A program made the translations under genes and the position numbers. Positions 9,627 through 15,580 of a DNA stretch of 15,660 nt are shown piece after piece. The stretch is from Microcaldota archaeon. Its GTDB lineage: Archaea > Micrarchaeota > Micrarchaeia > Norongarragalinales > UBA8480. The stretch lies in assembly GCA_023246885.1 (NCBI GenBank), contig JAHFHN010000003.1, forward strand, positions 1-15,660, read 5' to 3'. Numbering within the stretch: position 1 is the first letter of the stretch; each line of letters begins with the position of its first letter. The notes under the pieces were generated by a model. The model searched no databases, was not told the DNA's origin, and worked only from the letters and a program-made list of their open reading frames with translations.

Positions 9627-9755
9627 TTAACAACAGCCACTACACGAGCCGCTATTTGTTGTACAACATGCTTCAGACTTTTTGCCTGAACCACAATCGC
9701 AAGTCATTTTCTTTGTTTTTGTGCTTTTAGCTTTTGTCTTCGTTGTTTTTTTCAT
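9627..9755 (-). CDS. Small SEC-C motif, cysteine-rich protein (42 aa)
   Basis: Starts at ATG 9755 after the ribosome binding site GGTGGGAT and ends in TAA. The first 16 residues are Lys/Thr-rich. Residues 18-31 read TCDCGSGKKSEACC, an exact CxC-x8-CC spacing as in the zinc-binding SEC-C motif at the SecA C-terminus and in many small proteins. A second cluster, SCSGCC, forms the C-terminus, giving eight cysteines in all, so two metal sites are possible. A SEC-C motif often mediates contact with other proteins or ribosomes; here its role is unknown. The basic head may bind nucleic acid or acidic surfaces (inference). Too short for routine gene calling. Confidence 0.75.
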   Translation of the reverse strand: MKKTTKTKAKSTKTKKMTCDCGSGKKSEACCTTNSGSCSGCC

Positions 9756-11876: not shown

Positions 11877-12152
11877 ATGGTACATAGCGTTGTGTTAAGC
11901 GAAAAAGGACAATTAGTAATTCCAAAGCACATTAGAAAGAAATACGGCTTTGGCAAGGGAACTAAATTGCTAATTTTCGAAGAAAAAGGCAAACTTATTC
12001 TCGAGGGATCTGACTCAGTTGTTGAACGATTAAAGTTTTTGAACGATATGCCGGAAAGCGCATTGCAGTCAACTGTTTCAGAAGAAGTAACTCCTTTACA
12101 AAATAATGTAGAGTTGCCAGCTAAAAAAAGAGACGCACGAGAAATAACATGA
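11877..12152 (+). CDS. AbrB/SpoVT-type swapped-hairpin transcription regulator
   Basis: A 91-aa protein whose first 45 residues are the swapped-hairpin DNA-binding domain: VVLSEKGQLVIPKHIRKKYG, then GTKLLIFEEKGKLIL. The remaining 45 residues are polar and of unknown fold. Such domains bind DNA as dimers and act as regulators or as VapB-type antitoxins. No PIN-domain toxin follows, so an antitoxin role is not supported. It heads the left arm of the small-gene array, 35 bases before the next gene, has its own promoter, and carries no 20-bp box after its stop codon. Inverted GTAAGC repeats in its promoter suggest self-repression. Confidence 0.88.
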   Translation: MVHSVVLSEKGQLVIPKHIRKKYGFGKGTKLLIFEEKGKLILEGSDSVVERLKFLNDMPESALQSTVSEEVTPLQNNVELPAKKRDAREIT

Positions 12153-12187: not shown

Positions 12188-12580
12188 ATGCAAGAATTAC
12201 TACAGCAAATTAGTACGCTTGAACATATAGATTCAGCTCACCGCGCCGTGAACACAAGAGGCAAACCAACTGGAGTTATTAGGGTTAGCAGTAAAGTAAG
12301 CACAAGCAACGCGACTATTCACTTGATTGCGCGGCAACTTGGGTTAAAAGTGAAAAAAGCACATTCAGATCCAGAGGGAACAGCTTTTAATTTATTTATA
12401 TCTCACTCAACTAAGACAGGCGGCGCATTTCGCATAATGCTTGAAAATGCACATGATGAACAAAGCCTGGAAAAGCCAAGGTTTCGAATAAGTGGAAGTA
12501 AATTATCACATCCAGTTCGAGAATTAGCATTAAGTTTTTTTGAAGCACTTGCAAAGCCAAAGTTAACCTTAGTAAAATAA
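12188..12580 (+). CDS. Small array protein, alpha/beta type (130 aa), unknown function
   Basis: Not recognised. 130 aa, basic, with an N-terminal helix (ELLQQISTLEHI), two predicted strands, a helix around NATIHLIARQLGLKV, two more strands (AFNLFISH, GAFRIMLEN) and a C-terminal helix (PVRELALSFFEALAK). This alpha-beta-beta-alpha-beta-beta-alpha order is shared with three other genes of the array (12610, 14748, 15247), although sequence identity to them is weak. First gene of the left arm to carry a 20-bp box, which starts one base after its TAA. Only 35 bases separate it from the AbrB-type gene, so the two may be cotranscribed. Confidence 0.75.
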   Translation: MQELLQQISTLEHIDSAHRAVNTRGKPTGVIRVSSKVSTSNATIHLIARQLGLKVKKAHSDPEGTAFNLFISHSTKTGGAFRIMLENAHDEQSLEKPRFRISGSKLSHPVRELALSFFEALAKPKLTLVK

Positions 12581-12581
12581 T

Positions 12582-12601
12582 AGTTCATACATATAAGAAG
12601 T
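12582..12601 (+). repeat. Stop-codon box A (AGTTCAT-N6-AWGAACT family)
   Basis: AGTTCATACATATAAGAAGT. It begins one base after the TAA of the gene ending at 12580. The left arm is perfect; the right arm has one change (GAAGT for GAACT). It matches box F at 18 of 20 positions when both are read in gene direction. Its 3' end merges with the Shine-Dalgarno site of the next gene (GAAGTGAT). Confidence 0.8.
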
Positions 12602-12609
12602 GATTTTAG

Positions 12610-12957
12610 ATGTGGGAATTAACTGAAAGATTACGCAAATTAGGAGCAGTTTACTCCGTATCGCAGGGGGCTAGGCCAAATCTCATGCATGTTAGTGTTT
12701 TTTTAAAATCTGATAGAACTAGGGAGCAAATAGCCGCTGCAGCTAAAGCAGTTGAGTTAGACGCGGTACCCGGCGAATTGCCGGCTCCAGGCATACATAG
12801 CGTTGAGTTTCCAAATCTAAAAATCAACTGGGCAGAAAATAATCCAAATGTTTTGACTATGCACGCGTCTACAGAAGATTTAGATAAAGAAGAACGAAAT
12901 AGAATCGTGCAGTTTTTCCGCAGACTAAATCCACTAAAATTAACTAACAGGAAATAA
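12610..12957 (+). CDS. Small array protein, alpha/beta type (115 aa), unknown function
   Basis: Not recognised. ATG at 12610 is supported by GAAGTGAT (12597-12604), five bases upstream, matching the archaeal 16S tail complement. An N-terminal helix (ELTERLRKLGAV) is followed by two strands (YSVSQG, MHVSVFLKS), a helix (REQIAAAAKAVEL), two strands and a C-terminal helix (KEERNRIVQFFRRLNP). The order resembles the 130-aa neighbours, but alignable identity is low, so relatedness is an inference. Box B begins on the last base of its TAA. Confidence 0.75.
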   Translation: MWELTERLRKLGAVYSVSQGARPNLMHVSVFLKSDRTREQIAAAAKAVELDAVPGELPAPGIHSVEFPNLKINWAENNPNVLTMHASTEDLDKEERNRIVQFFRRLNPLKLTNRK

Positions 12958-12976
12958 GTTCATATTCAGATGAACA
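12957..12976 (+). repeat. Stop-codon box B
   Basis: AGTTCATATTCAGATGAACA. Its first base is the final A of the TAA stop of the preceding gene. The arms pair at six of seven positions. It ends 12 bases before the TATA box of the next gene. Confidence 0.85.
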
Positions 12977-12988
12977 TTTCCAATTGGT

Positions 12989-13024
12989 TTTTAAATAATG
13001 CGTACGTTTGATTTTACTGGTGAT
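12989..13024 (+). promoter_or_regulatory. TATA box and Shine-Dalgarno site of the gene at 13031
   Basis: TTTTTAAATAA (12988-12998) is TATA-like and would start transcription near 13018-13020. GGTGAT (13019-13024) matches the archaeal Shine-Dalgarno consensus, six bases before ATG 13031. This decides for 13031 over the earlier in-frame ATG at 12998, which lies inside the TATA box. Confidence 0.6.
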
Positions 13025-13030
13025 ATAAGA

Positions 13031-13360
13031 ATGCCGCTAAGTGCCTACTATGAACACGGAGGATTACAAGCAAGCAGAGTGCGATTACACAGTGCTATTT
13101 TTTCAAAGCTCCTAAAAGAAGGTAAGCCAATGAACATAAAAAAACTAGTGCACGAAGTAAATTGTGAAGTTAATCCAGTGCAAGGTAGATCGCCACTTCC
13201 AGAATTAAAAAAAGAGCACAATCTACGCGCGGCCATTGGAAATGAAATTAATCAACTTAGAGAACTTGGTTTCCTTGAACGTGCCAGATTGGGCAAAATA
13301 AGAATTGCACCAGCTATTGCAAGTCAACCCGAATTACATAAATTTGTTCGCAAAATATGA
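13031..13360 (+). CDS. Small winged-helix-like array protein (109 aa)
   Basis: Start at 13031 is chosen because GGTGAT lies six bases upstream and because its paralogue at 15580 also begins MPL. The two share MPLxxxYxHGxL (residues 1-12), H20, and a C-terminal block: GNEINQLRELGFLE (70-83) here against GEVDRLIHHGVIEP there, then a short wing ending RIAP versus RVNP. The predicted three helices plus wing suggest a winged helix-turn-helix DNA-binding protein; no named family is recognised. Last gene of the left arm. Box C begins eight bases after its TGA. Confidence 0.78.
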   Translation: MPLSAYYEHGGLQASRVRLHSAIFSKLLKEGKPMNIKKLVHEVNCEVNPVQGRSPLPELKKEHNLRAAIGNEINQLRELGFLERARLGKIRIAPAIASQPELHKFVRKI

Positions 13361-13368
13361 TTCGACAA

Positions 13369-13388
13369 AGTTCATACGCAGATGAACT
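13369..13388 (+). repeat. Stop-codon box C
   Basis: AGTTCATACGCAGATGAACT, the only copy with perfect seven-base arms (AGTTCAT/ATGAACT) around a six-base centre. It lies eight bases after the TGA of the preceding gene. No T-run follows it directly, so it is not an intrinsic terminator. Confidence 0.88.
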
Positions 13389-13506
13389 GCACATTTAGTG
13401 GTTCATTATAACAAAATGACCAATAAATTTTACTTTACAACATCCGTTTCAAATAATGAAAAACAAATTATTTTGTCAAAAACAATTTAATATCCACCGC
13501 TATTAG

Positions 13507-13540
13507 CTATTTTTATTCTTTTTTATCTTTTTTTCGTTCT
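13507..13540 (+). terminator. T-rich terminator of the left arm
   Basis: Four T-runs of four to seven bases within 34 bases, downstream of the last left-arm gene and box C. This is the archaeal type of terminator for plus-strand transcripts. Confidence 0.5.
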
Positions 13541-13719
13541 TAATACCACTACAGTGTACCAAATTACCCACACGCTAAGGCATTTTACTATTTGAGTTTA
13601 CTTCTTAGATGTTAAACTGCAAAAGTGTCCTGCTTTCCCTTGCCTAAACACAAACTTTATGCCAAAAGAATCGAAAATGTGCTATTTACAAAAAACAGAA
13701 TACCTACAAACGGTGGGAA

Positions 13720-13742
13720 CTGAAAAAGAAAAAAAGAAGAGA
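13720..13742 (-). terminator. T-rich terminator of the right arm
   Basis: Read on the minus strand this is a pyrimidine tract with T-runs of five and seven, starting about 16 bases after the stop of the 35-aa gene. It mirrors the left-arm T-tract. Confidence 0.45.
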
Positions 13743-13758
13743 GTTTACTTAATTGAGG

Positions 13759-13866
13759 TTAATTGAAAAAATTTACAACTAAATTATGATAATTTGAATA
13801 CGCTACTCCAGCCACCACCAGTACGCCTACAATAATTAGAATGATTATTGCTAATTTAAAACCCAT
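13759..13866 (-). CDS. Single-helix membrane peptide (35 aa)
   Basis: ATG at 13866 to TAA at 13759. The product is MGFK followed by one hydrophobic helix (about residues 5-22, LAIIILIIVGVLVVAGVA), then a short polar tail ending in VVNFFN. A purine-rich GTGGGAGAT sits six bases before the ATG, and TATAAATT is about 30 bp upstream. It follows box D and is the innermost gene of the right arm. The left arm has no counterpart. No family recognised; single-helix peptides of this type can be membrane regulators or small toxins, but nothing here decides. Confidence 0.6.
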   Translation of the reverse strand: MGFKLAIIILIIVGVLVVAGVAYSNYHNLVVNFFN

Positions 13867-13892
13867 AAAGAATCTCCCACATCCTAAACTAC

Positions 13893-13900
13893 AAATTTAT
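13893..13900 (-). promoter_or_regulatory. TATA box of the 35-aa membrane peptide gene
   Basis: Minus-strand GAATATAAATTTG contains TATAAATT, about 30 bp before the ATG at 13866. The centre of box D lies about 58 bp further upstream, similar to the box E to TATA distance for the gene at 14253. Confidence 0.5.
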
Positions 13901-13945
13901 ATTCGCCACTACAGCTGCTTTTTCGTTTAAACGATCCCACAAAGT

Positions 13946-13965
13946 AGTTCTTTTCCATATGAACT
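13946..13965 (-). repeat. Stop-codon box D
   Basis: Read in gene direction: AGTTCATATGGAAAAGAACT. It starts three bases after the TAA of the minus-strand gene ending at 13969. The right arm is AAGAACT, as in boxes E and F. Confidence 0.85.
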
Positions 13966-13968
13966 AAA

Positions 13969-14253
13969 TTATTTTCCGTCCCTTGGTAATCTTACAACTG
14001 TTTCCTTACCTAAACTAGGCGTTAATCGAATTTTTCGAATTGCTTCTGATCCTGCGCCTTTGTCTCGCAGAGGTTGCTCGTGTACTTTCAAAGCACCCCA
14101 TTTAACCAACAAAGTTAGTGCTCGATGAACATCTTTTTCGTCACCATTTAATTTAACTGCAACTTGCCCTACAATTTCCCCAACTGGCGCAGCTAAACTG
14201 GGCCGGCGGTTTAAATGTTCAAAAATATGCCCGTAAAGTCGCTCATGCTCCAT
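13969..14253 (-). CDS. Small winged-helix-like array protein (94 aa)
   Basis: ATG 14253 is preferred over a TTG at 14277, because AGGTGAT (14263-14269, minus strand) lies nine bases before it. Predicted helices are LYGHIFEHLNRR, VGEIVGQVAVKL and DEKDVHRALTLLVKWGAL, followed by a basic hairpin (KVHEQPLRDKG...IRKIRLTP) that would be the wing: a winged helix-turn-helix layout. Similarity to the other two winged-helix-like proteins is at the level of pattern only. Innermost box-bearing gene of the right arm, the mirror of the gene at 13031. Family and target unknown. Confidence 0.75.
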   Translation of the reverse strand: MEHERLYGHIFEHLNRRPSLAAPVGEIVGQVAVKLNGDEKDVHRALTLLVKWGALKVHEQPLRDKGAGSEAIRKIRLTPSLGKETVVRLPRDGK

Positions 14254-14262
14254 AACTATGAA

Positions 14263-14302
14263 ATCACCTATAAGCAAAACAACGTTACTTTTCTTTAAAA
14301 TA
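14263..14302 (-). promoter_or_regulatory. TATA box and Shine-Dalgarno site of the gene at 14253
   Basis: TATTTTAAA on the minus strand (14294-14302) predicts a transcript start near 14272, immediately ahead of AGGTGAT (14269 down to 14263). This is the same TATA, start, Shine-Dalgarno order as at 12989-13024. Confidence 0.5.
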
Positions 14303-14333
14303 CTTGTGCCACTAAATACACGCCGTCAATTCA

Positions 14334-14343
14334 GTTCTAGAAC
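14334..14343. repeat. Perfect 10-bp palindrome GTTCTAGAAC beside box E
   Basis: GTTCTAGAAC reuses the GTTC/GAAC half-sites of the boxes without a spacer, two bases from box E. Together they put four GTTC/GAAC half-sites within 32 bp. Confidence 0.6.
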
Positions 14344-14345
14344 AT

Positions 14346-14365
14346 AGTTCTTCTAAATATGAACT
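14346..14365 (-). repeat. Stop-codon box E
   Basis: Read in gene direction: AGTTCATATTTAGAAGAACT. Its first base is the last A of the TAA of the gene ending at 14365, the same overlap as box B. It matches box B at 17 of 20 positions. Confidence 0.87.
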
Positions 14366-14748
14366 TAAATTCTGAATAGTTTTCTTGCGGCGGCTTTTAT
14401 TTTTGCTTCTTCTGTGCTTTTTATTTTTACTGGTTCGTTCGTTGTTCCTGGCTTTCTCTCATAAATTTCTATTTCCGATACAGACGGATGAGTAAAACGA
14501 ACTACCCATTCGCGACCTGCTTTACAGGTAAAAAGGTGCTCTCGGCCAGATGTCATTGTGTTAAAACCAGCAGTTTGAAGTTTTTCACCAAGATGCGACA
14601 TAAATGCACGTTGATTAACTTGACGCTTCAATGACATGCGCACTAAATGCAGCGTATCTTCTCCTTTTCCATGAACTTTGTGAGTTTTTCTAATTGTAAC
14701 TGACTCAATCGGCGACACTGCATGAATTTCAGAAATAATTCTATACAT
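14365..14748 (-). CDS. Small array protein, alpha/beta type (127 aa), paralogue of gene at 15247
   Basis: Start taken at ATG 14748 (a TTG at 14757 would add three residues). It shares with the protein encoded at 15247 an N-terminal pattern MxxIIxxIHxxSxI and the block QRxFxxxLGxKLxxxGFxxxT with a following arginine (here Q46, R47, L53-L57, G61-F62, T66, R69). The order is helix, strands, helix (QRAFMSHLGEKLQTAG), strands (LFTCKAG, WVVRFTH, EIEIYERK) and a C-terminal helix (EAKIKAAARKLF). It is basic and without membrane segments, so nucleic-acid binding is possible but unproven. Family not recognised. Confidence 0.78.
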   Translation of the reverse strand: MYRIISEIHAVSPIESVTIRKTHKVHGKGEDTLHLVRMSLKRQVNQRAFMSHLGEKLQTAGFNTMTSGREHLFTCKAGREWVVRFTHPSVSEIEIYERKPGTTNEPVKIKSTEEAKIKAAARKLFRI

Positions 14749-14782
14749 TTTATTCAAAAAACACCAAAGTATGCAACGTTAA

Positions 14783-14798
14783 ATTTTGTTTTAAAGGT
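14783..14798 (-). promoter_or_regulatory. Possible TATA box of the gene at 14748
   Basis: On the minus strand CCTTTAAAACAAAATT contains TTTAAAA centred near 14793, which would start transcription near 14766, about 18 bases before the ATG and next to a TTTGGTG sequence. Box F lies about 54 bp upstream, centre to centre. Confidence 0.35.
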
Positions 14799-14836
14799 TT
14801 TCATTTGCTTTTTGTCTTTGTTTTTATCAAGAATTA

Positions 14837-14856
14837 AGTTCTTATATGGATGAACT
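14837..14856 (-). repeat. Stop-codon box F
   Basis: Read in gene direction: AGTTCATCCATATAAGAACT. It overlaps the TAG stop of the gene ending at 14855 by two bases (the AG). The closest relative is box A, 18 of 20 identical, in the mirror position on the other arm. Confidence 0.87.
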
Positions 14857-15247
14857 AGTGCTTTTTTCTAAGTTCTCGAAATAATCTATCATAAGCTCTG
14901 CGTTTTTGCGGCGTTAAATGATCCCACGTTGCCAGCCAAAGAGTATCCGGATAGTCACATTCATGAAAAGCAATTACTGCACTTTTTCTTCCTTTCTCAA
15001 CTACTTTTCTTACTCCCCTTATGGGAGCTCCGGCTTCTACTAAATAATTTGAACGTACTGCAGTTCTCCCAATGAACCCTTGTGCCCTAAGTTTTCGACC
15101 AAGTAAAGCCAAAAACGTCCGCTGCTTTGTCCTTCCCCTAACTTGAATAGGGAGAGTTACCTTGACGTAATGGCCGTATGCGCTTGTTTTTACCTCTGCA
15201 CGCCCAATTCCAGATTGCTCATGAATTGCGCAAATAATCTCTTCCAT
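14855..15247 (-). CDS. Small array protein, alpha/beta type (130 aa), paralogue of gene at 14748
   Basis: Exactly 130 aa like the gene at 12188. It begins MEEIICAIHEQSGI and carries the shared block QRTFLALLGRKLRAQGF at 42-58, then T62 and R65, in line with its paralogue at 14748. The C-terminal part has a distinctive aromatic segment (ECDYPDTLWLATWDHL) and ends in a basic helix (PQKRRAYDRLFRELRKK). Strongly basic overall, so it may bind nucleic acid (inference). It starts 12 bases after the upstream winged-helix-like gene, so the two are probably cotranscribed. Family not recognised. Confidence 0.78.
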   Translation of the reverse strand: MEEIICAIHEQSGIGRAEVKTSAYGHYVKVTLPIQVRGRTKQRTFLALLGRKLRAQGFIGRTAVRSNYLVEAGAPIRGVRKVVEKGRKSAVIAFHECDYPDTLWLATWDHLTPQKRRAYDRLFRELRKKH

Positions 15248-15259
15248 ATTTTGCCTTTT

Positions 15260-15580
15260 TTATCGTTTAGTTGCCTTAGTACTTTTTAGGCTTAATTCGG
15301 CGTCAATAAATTTGCTTGCAGCTTTTAAGAAAATTGGATTTACACGAAGGGCAGGCTTGGTATTTGGCGATGGCTCTATAACTCCGTGGTGAATTAGGCG
15401 ATCAACTTCTCCGGCAACTAGCCGTTTAGCCTTTACTGGATCGGTTCCACCCATACCAGCCAATGCATCAATCATAGTTTCGCGTGAAGCGCCCTTGAAA
15501 GCTAGTTCAAGACACATAGCGTGAGTTTTTCTCTGAGTTATGGGAAGTGCTCCATGTCTATATAAAACTTCCAACGGCAT
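15260..15580 (-). CDS. Small winged-helix-like array protein (106 aa), paralogue of gene at 13031
   Basis: ATG 15580 follows AGGTGA by eight bases. It shares with the left-arm protein at 13031 the opening MPLxxxYxHGxL, H20, and GEVDRLIHHGVIEP (57-70) followed by a wing-like RVNP (79-82). The predicted helices and wing suggest DNA binding. It is the outermost visible gene of the right arm and, unlike the genes downstream, has no 20-bp box after its stop; the next ATG comes 12 bases later. This parallels the AbrB-type gene at the head of the left arm. The C-terminus is a Lys/Ser-rich tail. Family not recognised. Confidence 0.78.
   Translation of the reverse strand: MPLEVLYRHGALPITQRKTHAMCLELAFKGASRETMIDALAGMGGTDPVKAKRLVAGEVDRLIHHGVIEPSPNTKPALRVNPIFLKAASKFIDAELSLKSTKATKR

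Follow-up and report, generated by a model that had tools for sequence, protein, structure and literature searches.

The window analysed here, a stretch of 15,660 nucleotides from contig JAHFHN010000003.1 of a Microcaldota archaeon (assembly GCA_023246885.1), contains six copies of a 20-bp interrupted palindrome, hereafter boxes A to F, each lying at the stop codon of a small gene. Related boxes occur, at one locus per genome, in 20 of 29 genomes of the order to which the organism belongs, an order of Candidatus Micrarchaeota. Comparison of these sites gives good support to the view that the boxes act as protein-binding palindromes of double-stranded DNA at gene ends. A more tentative reading, which we favour and regard as possible rather than probable, is that they are the binding sites of a small repressor that limits transcription read-through, like the stoperators of certain bacteriophages.

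Boxes at stop codons across the order

The window's genome (G000) is represented by an assembly of 771,436 bases in 121 contigs and is 63% complete. An earlier note on the window had listed six boxes of the form AGTTCAT-N6-AWGAACT with small deviations in A and B, and all were found at the positions and on the strands given there (Table 1). Boxes C, D, E, and F match AGTTCATNNNNNNAWGAACT exactly in the direction of the gene, and one right-arm mismatch each is carried by box A (AAGAAGT) and box B (ATGAACA). The left arm AGTTCAT is invariant in all six, as are A12, A14, and GAA at 16-18, in agreement with the note. The gaps from stop codon to box, said to range from -2 to +8, are +1, -1, +8, +3, -1, and -2 for boxes A to F. 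The claim that the window holds no further copy was also borne out: the remaining matches to the pattern carry 3 mismatches, and a weight-matrix scan at score 9.5, with a matrix partly derived from the six boxes themselves, returned these and no others, with nothing in five shuffles. With up to 3 mismatches, 15 strand-hits are counted in the window against 4.6 expected, a number reached by 1 of 200 shuffles. Across the whole assembly, AGTTCATNNNNNNAWGAA is matched exactly by the six boxes and nowhere else, so that the exact sites stay within one locus and are not strewn at random. When one mismatch is allowed, the assembly yields 26 strand-hits, and the reversed pattern yields 22; the enrichment therefore resides in the exact sites.

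The comparison set consisted of 98 genomes including the window's own, 29 of which belong to its order. Matches are clustered at one place in the genomes of this order and look scattered in those of other orders. In the 29 genomes, GTTCATANNNNTATGAAC with at most one mismatch gives 49 sites in 18 genomes, against 2 for a reversed control. Loci were fetched in two batches, of 18 and 14. The first batch supplied 73 consensus-selected sites for a weight matrix, and the scores in these 18 loci are hence non-independent. At a score of at least 17, this matrix gives 83 sites in 20 genomes, referred to below as the box genomes. They include G013, G023, and G025, all missed by the pattern search, and exclude G024, whose sole pattern match scores 13.5. 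Also outside the 83 are the loci in which no site reaches a score of 17 (L045, L046, and most of the 14 fetched later) and one further, unlinked site in G012 (contig C1, L137:9135), 27 bp away from a stop. The order consensus is the 20-bp palindrome AGTTCATAYnnRTATGAACT, with weaker outer TT/AA flanks on each side in roughly half of the sites. Boxes A to C are retained beside orthologous genes in G002, a genome of the same genus; with this and the restriction of exact sites to one locus, neither outcome that the earlier note had set as a refutation came about. The description of the motif as oriented holds in part: left and right arms are strictly asymmetric within the genus, whereas several boxes of G015 have their better arm on the opposite side.

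Linkage to stop codons extends beyond the window. It was measured with a self-made list of open reading frames (ORFs; at least 60 aa, longest first, no gene caller), to which genes for a ribbon-helix-helix (RHH) protein were added by hand. Ten of the 83 sites lie inside ORFs and 73 outside. A stop is found within -5 to +10 of 36 of these 73, compared with 5.4% of 2834 shifted non-ORF positions, and all 36 fall within -2 to +8; in the ten at -2 and the nine at -1, the stop codon is formed in part by the box. The corresponding linkage to starts is 15% against 6.6%. Stop-linked sites are contributed by 17 of the 20 genomes (not G007, G009, or G025). Without the hand-added RHH genes 31 of 73 sites remain linked, in 13 genomes, and without orthologous duplicates 33 of 68; in an earlier version of the test, with controls drawn at random from intergenic positions, 27 of 64 sites (42%) were linked versus 9.9%. 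The 37 unlinked sites include the extra boxes that G011 and G019 carry in non-coding clusters.

A DNA site and its candidate binder

The arms were compared as eight pairs of positions over the 83 sites. The consensus is kept in 503 cells and changed on one side in 143 (18 of the G-U type), while the double changes comprise 3 complementary and 15 non-complementary ones. Since complementary changes are few and the half-sites are conserved, selection apparently acts on the half-sites individually, as it would at the site of a dimeric protein, and binding of the boxes by a protein is a strong inference.

The most plausible binder in many relatives is a small RHH-type protein of ~60-100 aa, encoded in 14 of the 29 order genomes and accompanied by boxes at its gene in 11 of these 14. 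The candidate may have an RHH-like fold, and a Foldseek search against the PDB returned nothing below E 0.001. Outside the order, 4 weak matches (E 3e-8 to 5e-4) were obtained among the 246 genomes of the class that were searched. The protein was undetected in 9 of the 20 box genomes, among them that of the window. The suggestion that the box is the binding site of one of the array proteins is the best supported proposal of the earlier note, by the conserved half-sites without covariation and by the RHH genes, although this binder was not found in the genome from which the note was made. There is moderate reason to regard the RHH protein as the binder in relatives. In the window's genus, where the RHH protein was undetected, the array is headed by an AbrB-type protein, a homologue of which occupies the corresponding position in both G001 and G002 (fam9; L029 and L030). 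The winged-helix neighbour fam1 was rejected as binder, being undetected in 8 of the 20 box genomes (G003, G005, G007, G008, G011, G013, G016, and G019).

Possible roles of the boxes

In the favoured repressor reading, a small DNA-binding dimer, probably the RHH protein of the same locus in many relatives, would occupy the box where a gene or short gene unit ends and would pause or block RNA polymerase there. Each accessory unit would thereby be insulated or silenced, as by phage repressors at stoperators. A limit on read-through at unit ends is, we infer, the simplest account of the effect; an actual block of elongation by the bound protein is only weakly suggested. The stoperators of L5-type cluster A mycobacteriophages are numerous asymmetric 13-14-bp sites of a monomeric repressor, spread over the phage genome, mostly off promoters in short intergenic spaces and oriented with transcription; the repressor is encoded by the same element (PMC9283540, PMC6550527). 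The boxes resemble them in forming multiple sites in intergenic gaps, with 36 of 73 non-ORF boxes at stops and a putative repressor. They are 20-bp palindromes without the asymmetry of the phage sites, and this counts against the comparison. They also differ in occupying one archaeal chromosomal locus, in having a putative RHH binder, and in hugging the stop codons. The single orientation of stoperators is seen in all six window boxes, while in G015 the opposite arm is the better of the two in several boxes.

It is unlikely, but of the alternatives the one that survives best, that the box marks the 3′ boundary of an exchangeable unit in an integron-like capture array, with a short site other than attC and an enzyme yet to be named. 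The earlier note had offered a cassette boundary among its suggestions, and the layout fits it, as a box ends many units and in G015 follows an apparent HicB-HicA pair (the pairing is our own reading), not each of the two genes. The array genes are an accessory mix with few members common to different genomes. Among 65 hand-picked array proteins, the 25 of 41 Pfam families shown, including NUDIX, PIN, HicA, GNAT, DUF3800, and ankyrin, are unrelated and hold one or two members each, and only three cross-genome pairs reach E 1e-3 or better in a set without the G002 orthologues of three window genes. G000 and G002 share boxes A to C together with the three genes that these follow, and also the AbrB-type gene and a HAD gene (86% identity over 2.85 kb); they then diverge, and the right half of the array is not shared. 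In G015, the boxes at L039:10061 and 10601 are identical and their leaders similar (alignment score 44 against a shuffled maximum of 38), and this pair is a local duplication of box plus leader. G012 has three identical box centres. Centres within a genome are more alike than expected (2.32 versus 2.01 of 4), a real but small effect that may partly be one of composition.

Against exchange of this kind stand the recombinases and the flanks. Tyrosine recombinases (PF00589) were found in 14 of the 29 order genomes and 9 of the 20 box genomes and were undetected in the other 11, the genomes being incomplete. Serine recombinases (PF00239) were matched in 2 of 29 genomes, once over the cut-off, and in none of the 20 box genomes above it, with one weak match in G025. 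Y1 transposases (PF01797) were found in 7 of 29 and in 5 of 20 (G003, G004, G008, G013, and G016). In 9 of the 20 box genomes, including G002 and G010 (~90% complete), none of the three families, the only ones searched, was detected, a count in which incompleteness or divergence allows for misses. The sequence beside the boxes is mostly unshared, except at orthologous sites, overlapping neighbours, and the G015 pair; the 30th best flank pair scores 40 against the shuffled maximum of 38. A shared cassette flank of box F with G002 box 7257 (75% over 89 bp by BLAST) was rejected, for with the box removed it falls outside the 30 best flank pairs. Moreover, no conserved ORF lies between the two boxes found at each of the G010, G026, and G023 loci. 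A role in recombination would explain the gene turnover, but neither enzyme nor shared flanks were found.

Integron attC sites follow the layout RYYYAAC...GTTRRRY, and integron arrays without a local integrase exist. The boxes resemble attC arrays as palindromic sites 3′ of accessory genes with variable gene content, and the divergence of G000 from G002 suggests an exchange of units. However, they are of 20-24 bp, read GTTCATA...TATGAAC on inspection, have mostly unshared flanks, and lie in genomes more than half of which gave no PF00589 match; the 11 of 20 box genomes without such a match, incomplete as they are, also set the boxes apart from a Xer/dif module. In the main text of a survey of archaeal integrons, the word "Micrarchaeota" does not occur (PMC9668308). 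The boxes also differ from REP palindromes, in being confined to one locus per genome and in the few genomes with a Y1 enzyme. REP palindromes, which are served by RAYT transposases, are short palindromes at gene ends that are dispersed genome-wide.

Rather unlikely is a centromere-like or chromosome-organising site, an RHH-bound cluster of palindromes at one locus per chromosome. RHH proteins with multiple palindromic sites are known from MatP/matS and from ParG-type centromeres. The apparently RHH-like fold of the candidate binder, the single cluster per genome, the recurrence of neighbouring genes across families, and the extra boxes in non-coding stretches of G011 and G019 would suit such a site. 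The neighbours concerned are the Lhr helicase, E2-like and YukD-like genes, thioredoxin reductase, and fam1 (in family f7, fam1 is ~30 kb away), and from their recurrence the position of the locus looks inherited. Cumulative skew points both ways, with the G012 array inside a broad AT-skew minimum and the curve running straight, without inflection, through the array in G010. The linkage to stop codons is unexpected for a centromere. The SegB sites of Sulfolobales, which share with the boxes the RHH protein and the multiple palindromes, are scattered, mostly intragenic, and accompany SegA (PMC12284271), whereas the boxes are clustered and stop-linked. A replication origin or terminus was rejected, if weakly, the nearest above-cut-off Orc1/Cdc6 matches being ~44 kb (G010) and ~54 kb (G012) from the array.

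Improbable, too, is a gene-capture platform in which one locus, inherited across the order, would use the RHH protein and the 20-bp palindromes to organise the exchange of accessory units by non-integron, non-Xer, non-transposon machinery and to silence them. Very improbable is an RNA hairpin or intrinsic-terminator-like form of the mRNA 3′ element that the earlier note had also proposed, for which the palindromes directly after stop codons and the somewhat T-rich downstream flanks speak, but which is contradicted by arms without compensatory pairing (143 one-sided against 3 complementary double changes), by the retained exact sequence, by the single locus per genome, and by the position of box A and others between closely spaced genes. 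Only 8 nt separate box A from the next ATG, and a presumed GTGAT-type ribosome-binding site, assigned by eye, overlaps the box end; this entry of the right arm into the next gene's site argues against a terminator there.

Array genes and neighbourhood

The small genes of the array are listed with the boxes in Table 1. For the gene annotated at 12998-13360, the probable start lies at 13031 (MPLSAYYEH...), where its G002 orthologue begins.

Table 1. Boxes and genes of the array, in window positions.
Feature	Positions	Strand	Remarks
AbrB/MazE-type DNA-binding protein	11877..12152	+	heads left gene train; PF04014, 8.4e-08
Array gene, 130 aa	12188..12580	+	no Pfam match
Box A	12582..12601	+	AGTTCATACATATAAGAAGT; 1 bp past stop of gene 12188-12580; conserved in G002 (L030:9536)
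Array gene, 115 aa	12610..12957	+	no significant Pfam match
Box B	12957..12976	+	AGTTCATATTCAGATGAACA; overlaps final stop-codon base of gene 12610-12957; conserved in G002 (L030:9162)
Array gene, likely start 13031	13031..13360	+	winged-helix-like by eye only
Box C	13369..13388	+	AGTTCATACGCAGATGAACT; 7-bp arms perfectly palindromic; 8 bp past stop of gene ending 13360; conserved in G002 (L030:8756)
Stretch between boxes C and D, 557 bp	13389..13945		no convincing ORF
Box D	13946..13965	-	AGTTCATATGGAAAAGAACT; 3 bp past stop of gene 13969-14277(-)
Array gene, 102 aa	13969..14277	-	winged-helix-like by eye; sub-threshold Pfam matches only
Box E	14346..14365	-	AGTTCATATTTAGAAGAACT; 1-base overlap with stop of gene 14365-14757(-)
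Array gene, 130 aa	14365..14757	-	paralogue of 14855-15247 (E 2.7e-04)
Box F	14837..14856	-	AGTTCATCCATATAAGAACT; first two bases complete TAG stop of gene 14855-15247(-)
Array gene, 130 aa	14855..15247	-	paralogue of 14365-14757 (E 2.7e-04)
106-aa gene heading right train	15260..15580	-	stop without box

RNA-family, tRNA, and folding signals were looked for between boxes C and D, and none was found. In three species belonging to two genera (L035:8378-9055, L044:2744-3416, and L129:8314-8981), ~670 bp without a conserved ORF separate two boxes, and the distance of the second box to the stop of the RHH gene is 687-697 bp. A non-coding RNA between boxes was rejected: the only Rfam match in 16 loci is a tRNA in L043 (14562-14708), away from boxes, and ARAGORN found no tRNA in 17 loci. 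Folding z-scores disagree between species (+ strand, -2.9 in G010 and -0.7 in G026). Viruses were likewise rejected as carriers, since 14 viral contig stretches have one exact site apiece and no second site scoring at least 13.

Several other observations concern the surroundings of the locus and the genomes of the order. An E2-like (UQ_con) gene stands beside a small, weakly YukD-like (ubiquitin-like) gene at L034:14012-14762, L040:9948-10676, and L043:319-1113, the Pfam matches being for the L034 copies only; the two possibly form a ubiquitin-like conjugation pair. A GAF-GGDEF protein (L044:474-2159) adjoins the locus in G026; GGDEF domains are rare in archaea. A cysteine-rich ORF of 42 aa in the window at 9627-9755 (-), CDCGSGKKSEACC, is SEC-C-like by eye. 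G003 has eight Y1-transposase matches on several contigs, several of them contig-end fragments. Phage_integrase-family (XerA-type) proteins were undetected in 15 of the 29 order genomes (G001-G006, G010, G011, G019-G023, G026, and G028), some of which are ~90% complete, and chromosome-dimer resolution may use something other than a XerA-type enzyme there.

No published description of such stop-linked palindromes was found in titles and the beginnings of abstracts, a search to which subscription papers and bioRxiv preprints were largely external. It is unusual for a sequence-specific palindrome to be tied to the stops of unrelated genes and kept at a single locus throughout an order of archaea. 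Both a possible regulation of archaeal genes by protein roadblocks at gene ends and the turnover of accessory genes in Micrarchaeota with few detectable recombinases thereby become testable.

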